DNA of 17,405 bases from Pseudomonadota bacterium (GTDB lineage Bacteria; Pseudomonadota; Gammaproteobacteria; Acidiferrobacterales; Acidiferrobacteraceae). The stretch lies in NCBI GenBank assembly GCA_021797365.1, contig JAJZZU010000015.1, positions 1 through 17,405 on the forward strand. The letters run 5' to 3'. A program made the position numbers and the translations under genes. Positions 4,488 through 17,055 of the stretch are shown here, piece after piece. Position 1 is the stretch's first letter, and the number at the start of each line of letters is the position of its first letter. The notes beneath the pieces were generated by a model. That model was not told where the DNA came from. It saw only the letters and a program-made list of their open reading frames with translations, and ran no database searches.

Positions 4488-4615
4488 AAGGGCAAACGGG
4501 ACGCACACACTGGACGGATGCTGAGATCGCCACGCTCCGACGTCTCTACGCGGATACGCCAACTGGCGTTGGTCTGCCAGAACCGCCAGTTTCCCGGGAG
4601 CGCCGCCTGTTGTGA
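4484..4615 (+). CDS. Short Myb/SANT-like HTH protein, probably truncated
   Basis: A 43-codon frame begins at a GTG overlapping the upstream stop (GTGA) and ends in TTGTGA, which itself overlaps the GTG start of the next gene. Residues 7-27 (GRTHWTDAEIATLRRLYADT) match the first helix of Myb/SANT-like DNA-binding domains found in many phage proteins, where the sequence normally continues with a second and third helix. Here it ends in an unrelated Pro/Arg-rich tail, so the domain looks cut short, possibly by an old frameshift. The 3' part contains an 8-bp perfect inverted repeat (4561-4568 and 4584-4591). Coupling on both sides argues that it is translated. The small size limits confidence. Confidence 0.5.
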   Translation: MKGQTGRTHWTDAEIATLRRLYADTPTGVGLPEPPVSRERRLL

Positions 4616-4962
4616 CGACACTGGATCTCCATCAAGCCGCGGCTCTTCTCCACATGCACCCGGACACGGTGCAACAGAGAGCCAGGGCCGGACAGATCCC
4701 GGGTGCAAAGCCGGGGAAGCGCTGGGTGTTCGTCGAAGCGGACTTGATAGAGTGGCTGCGTACCCATTACGCTGGCGAGAAAACGAGGAGGATGGCGTGC
4801 TCAGAAAGCGCGGCAAGACGTGGTGGGTCGATATCCAGCACCGCGGACGCCGAGTTCGATGCTCTTGTGGCACCACGGACCGGACGCAGGCCCAGGAATA
4901 CCACGATCGTCTTAAAGCCCAATTTTGGCGCGAAGTCCGGATCGGCGAAGCCGCAGACATGA
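4612..4962 (+). CDS. Excisionase-like helix-turn-helix protein
   Basis: The 116-residue product begins at a GTG overlapping the previous stop. Residues 3-54 form an HTH_17/MerR-like excisionase domain: LDLHQAAALLHMHPDTVQQR is the helix-turn-helix, ARAGQIPGAKPGKRW the wing and VFVEADLIEWLRTHY the last helix. Such proteins bend DNA at attachment sites and direct a tyrosine integrase towards excision. The final 55 codons (about 4797-4962) overlap the start of the integrase gene in another frame. The tail is Ser/Arg-rich. Stop-codon-free overlap of this length between xis-like and int genes recurs in related prophages, so I take it as real, but the functional part is probably only the first 60 residues. 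Confidence 0.75.
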   Translation: MTTLDLHQAAALLHMHPDTVQQRARAGQIPGAKPGKRWVFVEADLIEWLRTHYAGEKTRRMACSESAARRGGSISSTADAEFDALVAPRTGRRPRNTTIVLKPNFGAKSGSAKPQT

Positions 4963-6104
4963 GCCTGCGCACAGCCGCGGTCGAGTGGATCAAGGCGGTC
5001 GGCTGTCACAAACGCAGCGCCGAGGATGACCGGCACCGCCTGCGGGTCCTGGGGCCCTCGCTCGATGGGCTCACCATCCGCACCGTCACGGCCGACGATC
5101 TGCGCCGGATCCGCGCCAAGGTGCTCGAGCGGGACATCGCGCCATCGACCGCCAACCGATACATGGCGGTCCTCTCGACCATTCTGCGCTACGCCCACAA
5201 ACAGGGCTGGTGCGAATCCGTCCCGGCTATCCCGAAGACACCCGAGCCGCGAGGCCGGATTCGCTGGATAACGCGCCATGAGGCCGCCAGACTCCTCGAT
5301 GAGCTGCCGATACACCTGCGCCGCATGGCCGCCTTTACGCTCGCCACAGGACTTCGTAGGGCCAATGTCACCGGACTCGAGTGGTCACGGGTCGACCTCG
5401 AGCGCCGTATGGCGCATGTCGTGGCCGACCAGGCCAAGGCTGGCCGTGCGATCGGGGTTCCCTTGAACGATGACGCCATGGCCATCCTCGCCGACTGTGC
5501 CGATGATCACCCGCAGTTTGTGTTCGTGTGGCGCCACCAACGGATCAAAGACACCGGGCAAAAGGCGTGGGCTCGCGCATGCGCGCGCGCCGGCATCCAG
5601 GACTTCCACTGGCACGACCTGCGCCACACCTGGGCGTCATGGCACATCATGGCCGGGACGCCCGTTCAGGTGCTCAAAGAGCTGGGGGGATGGGCAAGTC
5701 TTGAAATGGTCTTGCGCTACGCCCATCTGTCGCCGGCGCACCTGTCGGACGCGGCCCGAAACATCACCGGGCTGGCACAAATGCGTCACACTGGGGACGA
5801 GCACCTAGGTGATTATGATGCTAAGTCATTGATAAATTGGGGTGAGCGATGGGATTCGAACCCACGACAACCGGAATCACAATGGGGGGTATTTCGGCCT
5901 GACCCTTTTGCTAGTGTCATATATATCAATGCCTTAAATAAATCGCTCGCAAAAAATTCTGCCGTTTGCGACAATCCTGCGACAAGTCCATCGAACAGAG
6001 GCGCGTATGGCCACATTTGTTCAGCGTCCGGGCCCAGGCGGCAAGCGGGTCTGGCAGGCGCTTGTCCGGCGCAAGGGATACCCACAGCAGACCCAGACCT
6101 TTGA
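4797..6104 (+). CDS. int: Tyrosine recombinase / integrase 1, with read-through C-terminus
   Basis: The frame is open further upstream, but GTG 4797 is chosen because GAGGAGG lies six bases before it and the protein then starts at the N-terminal arm-binding domain (MLRKRGKTWWVDIQ). Of 435 residues, 1-60 form the arm-binding domain and about 63-150 the SAM-like core-binding domain. The catalytic residues R187 (TGLRR), K214, H273-x-x-R276 (WHDLRH) and Y308 (LRYAHL) are all in place, with GGW in the His/Trp position. The natural domain ends near residue 325. The frame then continues without a stop through the attachment site (residues about 340-365 are a translation of tRNA-His antisense) and into the start of the second recombinase gene. 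The true C-terminus therefore depends on what DNA is joined at the att site. Its partner is the upstream HTH excisionase. Confidence 0.9.
   Translation: MLRKRGKTWWVDIQHRGRRVRCSCGTTDRTQAQEYHDRLKAQFWREVRIGEAADMSLRTAAVEWIKAVGCHKRSAEDDRHRLRVLGPSLDGLTIRTVTADDLRRIRAKVLERDIAPSTANRYMAVLSTILRYAHKQGWCESVPAIPKTPEPRGRIRWITRHEAARLLDELPIHLRRMAAFTLATGLRRANVTGLEWSRVDLERRMAHVVADQAKAGRAIGVPLNDDAMAILADCADDHPQFVFVWRHQRIKDTGQKAWARACARAGIQDFHWHDLRHTWASWHIMAGTPVQVLKELGGWASLEMVLRYAHLSPAHLSDAARNITGLAQMRHTGDEHLGDYDAKSLINWGERWDSNPRQPESQWGVFRPDPFASVIYINALNKSLAKNSAVCDNPATSPSNRGAYGHICSASGPRRQAGLAGACPAQGIPTADPDL
5802..5811. repeat. 10-bp perfect palindrome near attachment site
   Basis: CACCTAGGTG lies at the end of the conserved part of integrase 1, 27 bp before the tRNA-His segment and beside the left IHF site. 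Whether it is part of the left att arm is unknown. Confidence 0.3.
5822..5834 (-). promoter_or_regulatory. IHF binding site, left arm of attP
   Basis: On the minus strand this matches the IHF consensus WATCAANNNNTTR without mismatch (TATCAA-TGAC-TTA). It lies four bases from the tRNA-His segment. IHF bends DNA so that lambda-type integrases can bridge arm and core sites. Confidence 0.6.
5838..5883 (-). other. attP: Attachment site core: 3' half of a tRNA-His gene
   Basis: Read on the minus strand, the segment is the tRNA-His gene from the anticodon loop (ATTGTGATT, anticodon GTG) to the encoded CCA. It contains the 3' anticodon strand CCGG, variable loop TTGTC, T arm GTGGG-TTCGAAT-CCCAT, acceptor strand CGCTCAC, the His-type C73 and CCA. 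The 5' half is absent: upstream of the loop one finds CCCCCC instead of the CCGGA needed to pair. Duplicated tRNA 3' halves are the standard core of tRNA-targeting integrases, since insertion then restores the tRNA. It lies at the end of integrase 1 and 123 bp before recombinase 2. The host target is inferred to be the chromosomal tRNA-His(GTG) gene. Confidence 0.85.
5924..5936 (+). promoter_or_regulatory. IHF binding site, right arm of attP
   Basis: TATCAA-TGCC-TTA matches WATCAANNNNTTR exactly and lies in a markedly AT-rich stretch 41 bp right of the tRNA-His segment. Together with the left site it brackets the core, as in attP sites of lambda-family integrases. Confidence 0.6.
5967..5985 (+). 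repeat. Direct repeats, candidate integrase arm-type sites
   Basis: TGCGACAA occurs at 5967-5974 and again at 5978-5985, spaced 11 bp (one helical turn) on the same DNA face. A related ACGACAA lies in the core (5864-5870). Tandem short repeats in this position usually bind the N-terminal domain of the integrase or the excisionase. Which of the two recombinases would bind is unknown. Confidence 0.45.
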
Positions 6105-7023
6105 TACGAAGGGCGAGGCGCAGGAATGGGCGGGCACCATTGAGAGCGCCATGCGTCGCAGGGTCTTTGTTTCGCGCGCCGAGGCTGAGAATACGACCCT
6201 GGCTGAGGCGCTGGATCGGTACGCGTCAGAAATCTCTGCGACCAAGAAGTCGGCCGATCGTGAGATTTATGTGATCCGCTGGTGGCGTGCCTCCGCGCTC
6301 GGCCCGCGGTCGCTGGCCTCAATCCGCGGCAAGGATATCGCGGATGCGCTGGCCGAAAAGGCAGCAACAGGGGCTGCCCCCAACACGATCCATCGCCACC
6401 TGGCACTCCTGTCCCACTTATTCACTGTGGCCCGTAAGCGTTGGGGCATCGAAGGTTTGAGGAATCCTGCAGAGATGGTACATAAGCCTCGCCTCCCCCA
6501 AGGGCGCGACCGCCGCCTGGCCGCTGGCGAACTCCTGCGCCTCTTAGCCGCAGCACAGGTCTACAGCGACTCGCCTCCCCATGCGTGGAGCCATATCGGC
6601 CCGATCATCACCTGGGCCATAGAGACCGCTATGCGCCGCGGGGAGATCGCGGCGATGCGTTGGGAGCACCTGGACCGGAAAGCCCGGGTGTTGTTGATCC
6701 CGGAAACAAAAAATGGGACACCCAGGCGGGTGCCGCTCTCCACGGCCGCGCTGGCGGTTTTAGATGGCCTGCCAAGACGTATTGATGGGCGCGTATGGGA
6801 CATGCACGCCCGCTCGATCTCCCATGCCTTCAGGCGAGTCTGTAAGGCCGCCGGTATCGAGAGCCTGGCCTTCCACGACCTGCGCCATGAGGCGACCTCC
6901 AGGCTCTTTGAGAAGGGGCTGAACCCGATGCAGGTGGCCGCCATTACGGGGCACAAGACCTTGCAGATGCTGAAGCGGTATACGCACTTGCGCGCCGAGG
7001 ATCTGGTGGGTATGTTGGGATAA
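6007..7023 (+). CDS. Tyrosine recombinase / integrase 2
   Basis: The 338-residue protein is a complete phage-type tyrosine recombinase. Residues 1-60 form an N-terminal arm domain (MATFVQRPGPGGKRVWQALV) and about 62-150 the core-binding domain. The catalytic residues are R210 (TAMRRGE), K235 (ETKNGTPRRVPL), H290-x-x-R293 (FHDLRHEATS), H316 (GHK) and Y325 (KRYTHL). The ATG at 6007 is the first in frame after the att region, with a moderate GAGG-like site upstream. It shows little similarity to integrase 1 outside the catalytic boxes, so the two are not a recent duplication. Its 5' end overlaps the read-through tail of integrase 1. It could serve the same att site, belong to a second nested element, or act as a resolvase of multimers. 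It is convergent with the zinc-ribbon protein gene. Confidence 0.92.
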   Translation: MATFVQRPGPGGKRVWQALVRRKGYPQQTQTFDTKGEAQEWAGTIESAMRRRVFVSRAEAENTTLAEALDRYASEISATKKSADREIYVIRWWRASALGPRSLASIRGKDIADALAEKAATGAAPNTIHRHLALLSHLFTVARKRWGIEGLRNPAEMVHKPRLPQGRDRRLAAGELLRLLAAAQVYSDSPPHAWSHIGPIITWAIETAMRRGEIAAMRWEHLDRKARVLLIPETKNGTPRRVPLSTAALAVLDGLPRRIDGRVWDMHARSISHAFRRVCKAAGIESLAFHDLRHEATSRLFEKGLNPMQVAAITGHKTLQMLKRYTHLRAEDLVGMLG

Positions 7024-14369: not shown

Positions 14370-15089
14370 ATGACGATGACTGGTGTGTCCGACCAGAAGC
14401 CCAAAACCCAACAGCGCGGCCATTGCCAGTGTTGCGGCGGGGAATGGGCGGTGCCGGTGAAGACCGGACACATGAGCAAACACGGTTACCAGGTCAAGAA
14501 TGGCTGGTTTGAAGGGCCTTGCGCGGGCGAGCGCTACCGCCCGATCGAGATCGAGCGGACCGTGGCCGACACCATCGTCGTGCAGGTTCACAGAGACGTT
14601 GCCGCACTCAGGAAACGTGCGCACGACCTGCGTAGTGGCACCATTGTCCCAGATACCGCCAAAGAGGGGCCATGGTCACGGGCCAAAGATATCCCGTTCC
14701 CACAGGCCTCCGTGTGGGAACAGAAAAGGGCGGTCGAATCGGAGATCCGTCGTTGCGAATCACGCGCGGATATGGGAAAGAGCTTTGCGAACCAGATTGA
14801 ATCTATCGCAAACACTTTTTACGGGAAACCGTTGCGAACGGTTGCGGTGGATCCGCATCCACCGCCCATTCGGATCGGTGAGCAACGGGTTCTGCCCGCA
14901 GGCCCCGTCACCGTGATCCGTATTGATCAAGGATCCATCATCTGTCGTGACGACAGCGGACGCAAGAGGCGAATCAGTACGCGCCAGTGGCGCACTCTTC
15001 CCCAACCAGAAACGCCGCCTGTAAGAAGGAGCGCGCCCGCAGACACTGCGAGCCGAATGGCGAGGTTTCACGGAGACACTGATGAATGA
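14370..15089 (+). CDS. Cys/His-containing phage-type protein, unknown function
   Basis: The 239-residue protein starts at an ATG abutting the previous stop, behind GGCGGGG; a second ATG two codons on is equally possible. Residues 18-55 read HCQCCGGEWAV...GHMSKHGYQVKNGWFEGPC, a zinc-binding pattern (Cys-x-Cys-Cys, His-x-x-x-His, Cys) that I know from many short proteins of phages and integrative elements without assigned function. A helical segment (about 65-130) follows, rich in Arg and Glu. A small beta-rich C-terminal region then appears (IRIGEQRVLPAGPVTVIRI, GSIICRDDSGRKRRIST), possibly an SH3-like or KOW-like module. The last eight bases overlap the next gene. Function is not assigned. 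Confidence 0.8.
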   Translation: MTMTGVSDQKPKTQQRGHCQCCGGEWAVPVKTGHMSKHGYQVKNGWFEGPCAGERYRPIEIERTVADTIVVQVHRDVAALRKRAHDLRSGTIVPDTAKEGPWSRAKDIPFPQASVWEQKRAVESEIRRCESRADMGKSFANQIESIANTFYGKPLRTVAVDPHPPPIRIGEQRVLPAGPVTVIRIDQGSIICRDDSGRKRRISTRQWRTLPQPETPPVRRSAPADTASRMARFHGDTDE

Positions 15090-15978: not shown

Positions 15979-16162
15979 GTACAACCCAAGAGAGCGCGGG
16001 GATGTTTCCCGCCATGCGAGGCATTCTGGTCGGCCGTGTCGAGAAAGATGCGTATACCGACAGGAACGTGTGTTCCGGACACACCGATCGGCTCGGATCG
16101 GCCACCAAGAGTAGTCGTCGCGTTCCCCGGGCATCCTGTGGACTCGGTGGCGCGGCGCATTG
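15979..16162 (+). other. 184-bp structured spacer in the tRNA array
   Basis: I see no tRNA or gene here. It holds several hairpins: GCGGG-GATGTTT-CCCGC (15996-16012), the mutually exclusive pair GGAAC-GTGT-GTTCC and GTGTG-TTCCGGA-CACAC, and CCGATC...GGATCGG. The rest has no repeats. It may be a decayed tRNA or a processing spacer. Confidence 0.5.
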
Positions 16163-16250
16163 GGTTGGTGACATAAGACGGGCTGGGCCCGTGACCGGCT
16201 GTAACCCGGTTCCCTCAGGGCACGAGGTTCGATTCCTCCACCGCCCACCA
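16163..16250 (+). tRNA. tRNA-Tyr(GTA), unusual D arm
   Basis: The anticodon arm ACCGG-CTGTAAC-CCGGT (anticodon GTA at 16201-16203) and the long variable arm with CCC-TCA-GGG are those of class II tRNA-Tyr. A73 and CCA are encoded. Deviations: the acceptor GGTTGGT/ACCGCCC has one T-C mismatch, the T stem has one C-C mismatch, position 8 is G rather than T, and the D region can only form ACGGG-CTGGG-CCCGT instead of a normal D arm. Confidence 0.75.
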
Positions 16251-16255
16251 TTTTT

Positions 16256-16413: not shown

Positions 16414-16457
16414 TCTTTCTTTTCCGTGTTGGTCTGACCTCCACGCGGAGTCATTTT

Positions 16458-16540
16458 CGGGGTGTAGTTCATAACAGTAGAACATCCGCGCGGTCGCACC
16501 GCGGGGAAGAAATCTGGCGCAAATCCAGACACCCCGGCCC
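16458..16540 (+). tRNA. Aberrant tRNA-like gene, possible anticodon CGC
   Basis: Acceptor CGGGGTG/CACCCCG, D arm GTTC...GAAC and T stem TCTGG/CCAGA are perfect, so a cloverleaf is intended. The T loop is CGCAAAT, lacking the usual TTC. The anticodon region can fold as a four-pair stem with loop GTCGCAC (anticodon CGC, Ala) or as a competing longer hairpin with a three-base loop. Three extra bases follow the D stem, the variable loop has eight bases, and the 3' end reads GCCC rather than N-CCA. It may be decaying or specialised. Isotype is uncertain. Confidence 0.5.
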
Positions 16541-16545
16541 TTTTC

Positions 16546-16621
16546 GGGCCCCTAGCTCTAACGGGAGAGCGTCTGCTTTGCACGCAGAGGGTTGTCGGTT
16601 CGAATCCGACGGGGTCCACCA
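16546..16621 (+). tRNA. tRNA-Ala(TGC)
   Basis: Acceptor GGGCCCC/GGGGTCC includes the G3-T70 pair that defines alanine tRNAs. Anticodon arm TCTGC-TTTGCAC-GCAGA (anticodon TGC), T arm with loop TTCGAAT, A73 and CCA. Its first bases pair with the end of the preceding gene (GGCCC-TTTTC-GGGCC), so the two are nearly fused in a hairpin. Confidence 0.92.
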
Positions 16622-16626
16622 TTTGT

Positions 16627-16697
16627 TGCGGGACAGCGGTCGCGTCCGGGTCTCATAAGCCAGGGACGGGGTGGTTCGACTCCATCTCCCGCTACCA
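16627..16697 (+). tRNA. tRNA-Met(CAT), shortened D arm
   Basis: Anticodon loop CTCATAA (CAT at 16654-16656) is the exact Met loop. Six acceptor pairs GCGGGA/TCCCGC sit behind an unpaired T1-T72, then A73 and CCA. An unpaired 1-72 is otherwise the mark of initiator tRNA. Only 13 bases lie between acceptor and anticodon stem, where about 19 are normal, so the D arm is at best a three-pair stub. The anticodon stem has one mismatch. Total length is 71. Confidence 0.7.
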
Positions 16698-16701
16698 TTC
16701 C

Positions 16702-16867
16702 GTGGTCATAGCTCAGACGGGAGAGCGCTTGCCTCGCATGCAAGAAGTCGCCGGCATTGCATTGCAGGCCGTATGGCCTGTGGGCCGTAACATTGTAGGC
16801 CGTGTATAACCCCCTCTTTGTGGGGGCATGGCCTATGGCCCATTCGACTCCGGCTGACTCTCCACCA
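16702..16867 (+). tRNA. tRNA-Ala(CGC) interrupted by an 88-nt structured insertion
   Basis: Everything up to the T stem is canonical: T8 A9, D arm GCTC-AGACGGGA-GAGC, anticodon arm CTTGC-CTCGCAT-GCAAG (anticodon CGC), and 5' T-stem strand GCCGG (16750-16754). The T loop TTCGACT and 3' strand CCGGC (16843-16854) follow only after an extra 88 bases. The 3' acceptor side is two bases too long (TGACTCT before CCACCA), against 5' GTGGTCA. G3-T70 is kept. It is either a disrupted pseudogene or a tRNA that must be processed. Confidence 0.75.
16755..16842 (+). other. Structured insertion in tRNA T arm
   Basis: The insert folds into CAGGCC-GTAT-GGCCTG (16765-16780) followed by three nested helices. 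They are TGGGCC/GGCCCA (16781-16786 with 16837-16842), TAGGCC/GGCCTA (16796-16801 with 16830-16835) and CCCCC/GGGGG (16810-16814 with 16822-16826). GGCCGT occurs three times and CATTG three times. It is too short for a group I or II intron and codes for nothing. Confidence 0.75.
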
Positions 16868-16979: not shown

Positions 16980-17055
16980 GGGGATGTAGCTCAGATGGGA
17001 GAGCGCCTGCGTGGCACGCAGGAGGCCACCGGTTCGACTCCGGTCATCTCCACCA
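16980..17055 (+). tRNA. tRNA-Ala(GGC)
   Basis: Acceptor GGGGATG/CATCTCC with G3-T70, D arm GCTC...GAGC, anticodon arm CCTGC-GTGGCAC-GCAGG (anticodon GGC), T arm ACCGG-TTCGACT-CCGGT, A73 and CCA. Canonical. Confidence 0.94.

Follow-up and report, generated by a model that had tools for sequence, protein, structure and literature searches.

Group I introns are usually about 200 nt or more in length, and in bacterial tRNA genes they mostly occupy the anticodon loop. Archaeal and eukaryal tRNA introns of the bulge-helix-bulge type are also found at sites other than the anticodon loop, in some cases the T arm. Bacterial 23S rRNAs carry intervening sequences that are excised by RNase III, and we know of no RNase III-excised intervening sequence in a tRNA. 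Excerpts of PMC3984707 describe group I introns that interrupt bacterial tRNA genes, and excerpts of PMC9897764 describe tRNA pseudogenes and tRNA fragments of mobile elements, which are mostly partial genes.

The window, which is the whole stretch of DNA analysed (17,405 bases, 62% GC), ends in a tRNA array that runs off the window end. By reading, the array contains 12 complete tRNA units and one Leu gene cut by the window end, and the same eight tRNAs are detected in the window by ARAGORN and by Rfam. Upstream of the array are a methyltransferase-like ORF, 61.6% identical to a Pseudomonas aeruginosa phage protein, as well as two integrase-like ORFs, an exonuclease, a DnaB-type helicase and a sigma-70 factor (PHROGs and Pfam). 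The element carrying the array is phage- or plasmid-like. Two overlapping ORFs at 4518-7023 both match the integrase family phrog_1. The ORF at 14370-15089, beside the array, encodes only 239 aa; its relatives have 383-392 aa at 72-86% identity, and its product lacks their C-terminal part.

The tRNA-Ala(CGC) gene at 16702-16867 (forward strand, as are all window features below) has its T stem and T loop separated by 88 nt. It reads as the acceptor 5' strand GTGGTCA (16702-16708), TA, the D arm GCTC-AGACGGGA-GAGC (16711-16726, aligned by the Rfam tRNA model), G, the anticodon arm CTTGC-CTCGCAT-GCAAG (16728-16744, anticodon CGC at 16735-16737), AAGTC and the T-stem 5' half GCCGG (16750-16754). 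The structured insert follows (16755-16842), and after it come the T loop TTCGACT with the T-stem 3' half CCGGC (16843-16854) and an acceptor 3' strand, TGACTCTCC, of 9 nt and not 7, with ACCA (16855-16867). The T-stem halves pair 5/5 (16750-16754 with 16850-16854), and the anticodon arm is uninterrupted. The insert lies at 53|54, and the coordinates, anticodon and length agree with the preliminary description, which had placed an exact split between T stem and T loop here.

This gene resembles each of the described systems in part. Like the tRNA genes with group I introns it is interrupted, but its insert is 88 nt long and lies in the T arm, and Rfam gives no sensible match for the insert and no match to an intron family. 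The earlier view that it is too short for such an intron is right. It shares with the bulge-helix-bulge introns a short insert in a tRNA gene, and differs in its phage-like context and irregular acceptor; the predicted folds at the insert borders have no bulge-helix-bulge motif by eye. The 23S rRNA intervening sequences are likewise stable stem-loops inserted in a structured RNA at the end of a helix, but for the window insert no conserved copy was found in the searches described below. With the mobile-element tRNA pseudogenes, as far as excerpts of PMC9897764 describe them, the gene has in common a tRNA-like character, defects in the acceptor or other arms, and a low model score. Those pseudogenes are mostly partial, whereas the window gene keeps nearly all arms around a structured insert.

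The gene is probably a decayed tRNA-Ala(CGC) pseudogene in the array of a phage-like mobile element, with a hairpin-rich insert at the T stem/loop border and an irregular acceptor, a second defect that the preliminary description had overlooked. In the CCA register, GTGGTCA pairs with the 9-nt strand at only 3/7 positions, whereas eight intact neighbouring tRNAs have a 7/7 acceptor beside an NCCA end and a T stem of 5/5, with G-T pairs allowed. When the 3' strand is taken to begin right behind the T stem, 6/7 positions pair (two of them G-T) and two extra bases are left before ACCA, so that the acceptor is irregular and not destroyed. A 7-bp in-register acceptor with discriminator and CCA is absent. 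The Rfam tRNA model gives the gene 24.8 bits against a cutoff of 29, with the T arm misplaced, and ARAGORN makes no prediction for it with the intron option on or off. The low score need not follow from the insert alone, since the same Rfam model assigns 42.6-55.1 bits to eleven phage tRNA genes that are 114-131 nt long and contain additional sequence in their anticodon region. The model is an imperfect judge, since two insert-bearing phage genes (1393-1529 in L345 and 4031-4141 in L387) are absent from the Rfam-scored list, and an 88-nt insert in the T arm is a harder case for it than inserts in the anticodon region.

The neighbouring units of the array also bear on the pseudogene. Intact genes for tRNA-Ala(TGC) (16546-16621) and tRNA-Ala(GGC) (16980-17055) are both found by ARAGORN and Rfam with 7/7 acceptors, the latter with 80% identity over 46 nt in the D and anticodon arms. 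Three of the 11 other complete units fall below the Rfam cutoff. These are a Tyr(GTA)-like unit with an abnormal D region (16160-16252; tRNA-Sec model 27 bits, cutoff 47), a Met(CAT)-like unit with a short D arm (16626-16698; tRNA-Sec model 18.8 bits, cutoff 47), and a unit at 16457-16540 that has the T loop CGCAAAT and lacks CCA. The last is called by ARAGORN under the intron option only (anticodon CGC plus 2 extra nt), and the Rfam tRNA model has no match to it. Together with the tRNA-Ala(CGC) gene, four of the 12 complete units therefore look damaged. The pseudogene is supported by the difference in acceptor pairing, the sub-threshold Rfam score, the lack of an ARAGORN call and the two intact Ala genes. 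Further support comes from the three aberrant units nearby, the direct repeats inside the insert, and the absence of another credible T-arm insert from the scans below. What remains is a recognisable tRNA with lesions in conserved structure, as in a pseudogene.

The insert has a predicted minimum free energy of -47.5 kcal/mol (z -3.87), and none of 200 shuffles is as stable. The whole 166-nt gene folds at -73.9 kcal/mol (z -2.54; 3 of 200 shuffles as stable), with the T stem still closing around the insert. Because four intact tRNAs of the array have fold z values of -1.23 to -2.26, only the z of the insert itself stands out. The predicted fold reproduces the hairpin and three nested helices that had been proposed. 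The 7-bp hairpin occupies 16764-16781 (16764-16770/16775-16781), and the nested helices lie within 16782-16841, with 5 bp at 16782-16786/16837-16841, 10 bp at 16795-16804/16827-16836, and 5 bp around a 7-nt loop at 16810-16814/16822-16826. This last stem and loop (16810-16826) was considered as part of a nested tRNA, a reading rejected because the insert has no T arm by eye. The repeats CATTG and GGCCGT are each present three times by reading, CATTGYAGGCCGT occurs twice 31 nt apart, and ATGGCCTGTGGGCC and ATGGCCTATGGCCC form a repeat pair 55 nt apart. The repeats from which growth by duplication had been proposed are therefore present, and the growth itself is possible.

If the gene has decayed, the 88-nt segment probably grew by, or arrived with, small local duplications and inversions. 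The insert parts the T loop from its stem and should thereby weaken the contact between D loop and T loop, on which tRNA maturation depends; the product would be neither matured nor charged. Loss of the CGC tRNA would be tolerated if Ala(TGC) reads GCG by wobble, and would be bearable because the array also has intact Ala(TGC) and Ala(GGC) genes. A common origin of the two ends, in a single ancestral gene, is suggested by the five pairs of the T stem and the four inner pairs of the acceptor (GTCA/TGAC).

Several features speak against decay. Random decay would not be expected to spare so neatly the D arm, anticodon arm, five T-stem pairs, T loop and CCA, and the insert lies exactly at the stem/loop border with a fold well beyond that of shuffles. 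The 6/7 register of the acceptor could mean a single mismatch plus two extra bases before ACCA. The GCG codon is common (43 per 1000 in the 14 window ORFs counted), so a CGC tRNA could be useful.

The preliminary description also raised a new mini-insertion element, for which no second copy of the insert was found in the window, IMG/VR, or named phages and plasmids. Against the rest of the window the best score of the insert is 22, a value reached by 91 of 100 shuffles. In named phages and plasmids the matches are confined to pieces of 20-28 nt with E values of at least 2, and a 36-base piece of the insert has no exact match in IMG/VR. The tRNA body of the gene likewise has no exact pattern match in IMG/VR, and the nearest named-phage tRNAs are 80-89% alike. 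The neighbouring gene 14370-15089 has no IMG/VR relatives as a single-protein query, and an alignment query gives 80 IMG/VR loci. Among 159 neighbour-gene loci, each up to about 20 kb, none has a tRNA array, and ARAGORN finds any tRNA in only three. No relative was found in GTDB by the neighbouring genes, and the sigma-factor query gave no relatives.

Other T-arm inserts were sought in 233 sources including the window, where the scan recognised 1222 normal tRNAs and gave two T-arm-insert candidates, the window gene itself and one in L348 that is a chance pairing with a neighbouring tRNA. The scanner required the D and anticodon arms to be intact and at least 6 acceptor pairs. Of the eight intact window tRNAs it recovered seven, and its total of 1222 tRNAs compares with 2064 by ARAGORN with introns on (240 loci), so many irregular cases would escape it. 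Pattern scans for tRNAs with long inserts, which are samples and not censuses, gave at least 255 places, of which 30 lack a normal T arm; on reading, none of these 30 has a T-arm insert. A search of GTDB contigs for a T-arm insert with the same T stem gave seven matches; six are two neighbouring tRNAs, and the seventh (L397) is an intact tRNA that has its own 3' part repeated behind it.

Jumbo phages have tRNA genes in which an insert of 38-74 nt separates nt 28 from nt 29 and so interrupts the 5' strand of the anticodon stem after its second base. A sound insert was taken as one with a 7/7 acceptor and a perfect 5-bp anticodon stem across the insertion point, and 19 distinct sound inserts are found among 50 candidate rows. 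The other 31 rows include two in L323 that lie one base further and one in L353 at the loop border. L335 2506-2581 has both the acceptor and the anticodon stem, but spans two neighbouring tRNAs, and the remaining rows look like neighbouring tRNAs or chance. The carriers include Serratia phage BF, Erwinia phages pEa_SNUABM, Xanthomonas XbC2, Erwinia Kaldavass and Vibrio D479, and Cronobacter GAP32 and Pectobacterium CBB have inserts in one Lys and one Glu gene each. The insert-bearing genes (Lys, Glu, Asn and others) are at 905-1029 in L340, 2306 and 4001 in L402 (GAP32), 2300 and 4001 in L403 (CBB), 2353 and 4001 in L404, 852 and 2501 in L405, 2494 in L406, 1181 and 1332 in L407, and 2494 in L408, with further jumbo-phage and other viral genes in L324, L376, L387, L345, L330, L337 and L297. 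The tRNA-Glu-like gene at L402 2306-2419 (GAP32 298388-298501) is without annotation in the GAP32 record.

Fifteen of the 19 inserts were aligned; those of L297, L330, L337 and L345 were left out because they lack the motif by eye. The aligned inserts have a common hairpin followed by CNGCA. For five of the six hairpin pairs, at least one sequence has both partners changed, although 0 to 4 of the 15 break or lack any given pair and covariation contributes little (a term of -0.3 kcal/mol). A model of the fifteen inserts (R1) gives 4 to 8 matches per genome at E up to 1 in seven named genomes, a count that includes its own members and weaker matches that are not all sound. The inserts at 28|29 may represent a new class of short introns in phage tRNAs.

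The window insert is like these inserts in being short, hairpin-bearing and in a phage tRNA gene. The jumbo-phage inserts have a fixed site in the anticodon stem and 7/7 acceptors, are conserved among phages and mostly carry the motif, none of which holds for the window insert. It was considered as a member of this family and rejected, as it sits at 53|54 and leaves the anticodon arm whole. Without filtering, R1 has two matches in the window, of 3.9 and 3.3 bits, and since neither falls on 16755-16842 the window insert lies outside the jumbo-phage family.

A processed intervening sequence and a tolerated extension of the T arm had both been suggested for the window insert, and neither gains support, as the gene is otherwise unsound in its irregular acceptor and its Rfam score. 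In the first case the T stem would hold the parts of the tRNA while a double-strand RNase excises the rod, and the ends would be rejoined or the tRNA would work nicked. The T stem is indeed kept, closing the insert in the predicted fold; the rod is stable and lies exactly at the stem/loop border, the acceptor pairs at 6/7 in one register, and short tRNA-gene inserts exist elsewhere in phages. Processing is nevertheless improbable, given the irregular acceptor, the lack of a homologue in the searches above, and a position, motif and size unlike those of the phage inserts, with no R1 match here. It is also disfavoured by the lack of a match to an RNA ligase family among 10 ORFs compared with PHROGs and 9 with Pfam, although several of these ORFs have no match at all and the window covers the element only in part. 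Slightly more doubtful is the specific version in which a phage tRNA-Ala(CGC) loses the 88-nt rod, as an intervening sequence of its T arm, by removal or nicking as it matures, while its irregular acceptor is either tolerated or trimmed. If true, the rod would be an unusual T-arm interruption and the T-arm counterpart of the short jumbo-phage tRNA inserts.

A rearrangement is unlikely to a similar degree. Here the 5' part and the 3' end of two tRNA genes would be joined across a spacer, or the insert would be the scar of a site-specific integration at the T loop. The poor fit of the acceptor strands in the CCA register and the two integrase-like ORFs of the window are consistent with it, but the T-stem halves fit 5/5 and the inner acceptor pairs fit as well, which suggests one original gene. 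Moreover, no other part of the window resembles the insert more than chance would allow, and the insert borders have no clear target-site repeat by eye. A tolerated long extension in a working tRNA is very unlikely; the D, anticodon and T stems and CCA are present, but the T loop is no longer closed by the stem that belongs to it, the acceptor strands are out of register and the Rfam score is below the cutoff. An assembly artefact is the least credible reading, since composition resembles the neighbourhood (insert 58% GC, array 61%), nearby open frames are long and gene borders are clean, although the upstream gene 14370-15089 is shorter than its relatives. Decay of the gene copy is the preferred reading for the window gene.

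The jumbo-phage motif also occurs in a permuted order, in which the 3' half of the insert is followed by the 3' part of a tRNA, its 5' part (or an anticodon stem-loop only) and the 5' half of the insert. A script for the 3' motif locates 14 places on one strand of a 32-kb stretch of GAP32 (L434, 279500-311500); three are cis hairpins, and for the other 11 a perfect 6-bp partner lies downstream at a distance of 32-143 nt. Kaldavass has 13 such places in 35 kb (L435, 71500-106500), two of them cis, nine with a downstream partner and two without. The opposite strands have four places in each phage and a partner in none of the eight, a small control in which a chance partner is estimated in about 1 of 20 places. 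The counts of the script are low, since the Lys inserts at GAP32 300108 and Kaldavass 76258, if not others, escaped it although R1 matches both. Several of the units with a downstream partner look like circularly permuted or split phage tRNA genes; one of them, at GAP32 310123, consists of a T arm, CAGTACT, TTCG, AGTACTG and a D arm. In others an anticodon stem-loop is all that is present. GAP32 305265 and 305963 are preceded by TATAAT-like boxes.

Other tRNA genes are unusual in different ways. In ARAGORN output read by eye, the anticodon loop seemingly holds a second tRNA-like unit, with acceptor-like ends, a T-arm-like hairpin and, in several, CCA; these are L212 8138-8294 (minus strand), L280 14-147 and 5316-5510, L282 4219-4339, L327 7555-7680 and L339 1418-1565 (minus strand). 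ARAGORN also gives anticodon-loop inserts of 54-73 nt, too short for group I introns, in L330 476-609, L353 629-758 and L316 12693-12841 (minus strand). Lone tRNA 5' halves, with the acceptor strand and D arm, lie directly 5' of complete tRNAs in the viral contigs L302, L305, L307, L314 and L364, among the matches listed.

The literature matches listed, mostly outside subscription journals and preprints, include none on T-arm inserts in bacterial or phage tRNA genes and, within the same scope (subscription journals and bioRxiv mostly outside), none on short tRNA introns or permuted tRNAs in phages. The topic of PMC11878797 is self-splicing introns of Bastillevirinae phages, and that of PMC11946776 is giant-virus tRNAs. 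The CBB genome paper (PMC5259590), in the excerpts available, gives 33 tRNAs, of which 31 are taken as functional, two RNA ligases, one perhaps for tRNA repair, and one general mention of introns. By word search of the available text, introns appear only as general remarks or references in the large-phage papers PMC5107563 and PMC6892783, and are absent from the tRNA array and cluster papers PMC6409571 and PMC5966550. Novelty against the literature is provisional, because most subscription journals and bioRxiv preprints fall outside the literature covered.

On its own, the window gene is probably just another decayed member of a mobile tRNA array, and a warning that a structured insert in a tRNA need not be an intron. 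The jumbo-phage inserts are of more interest than the window gene. If the permuted units are what they look like, inserts at one place and permuted units with the same motif would together be an unfamiliar organisation of phage tRNA genes.
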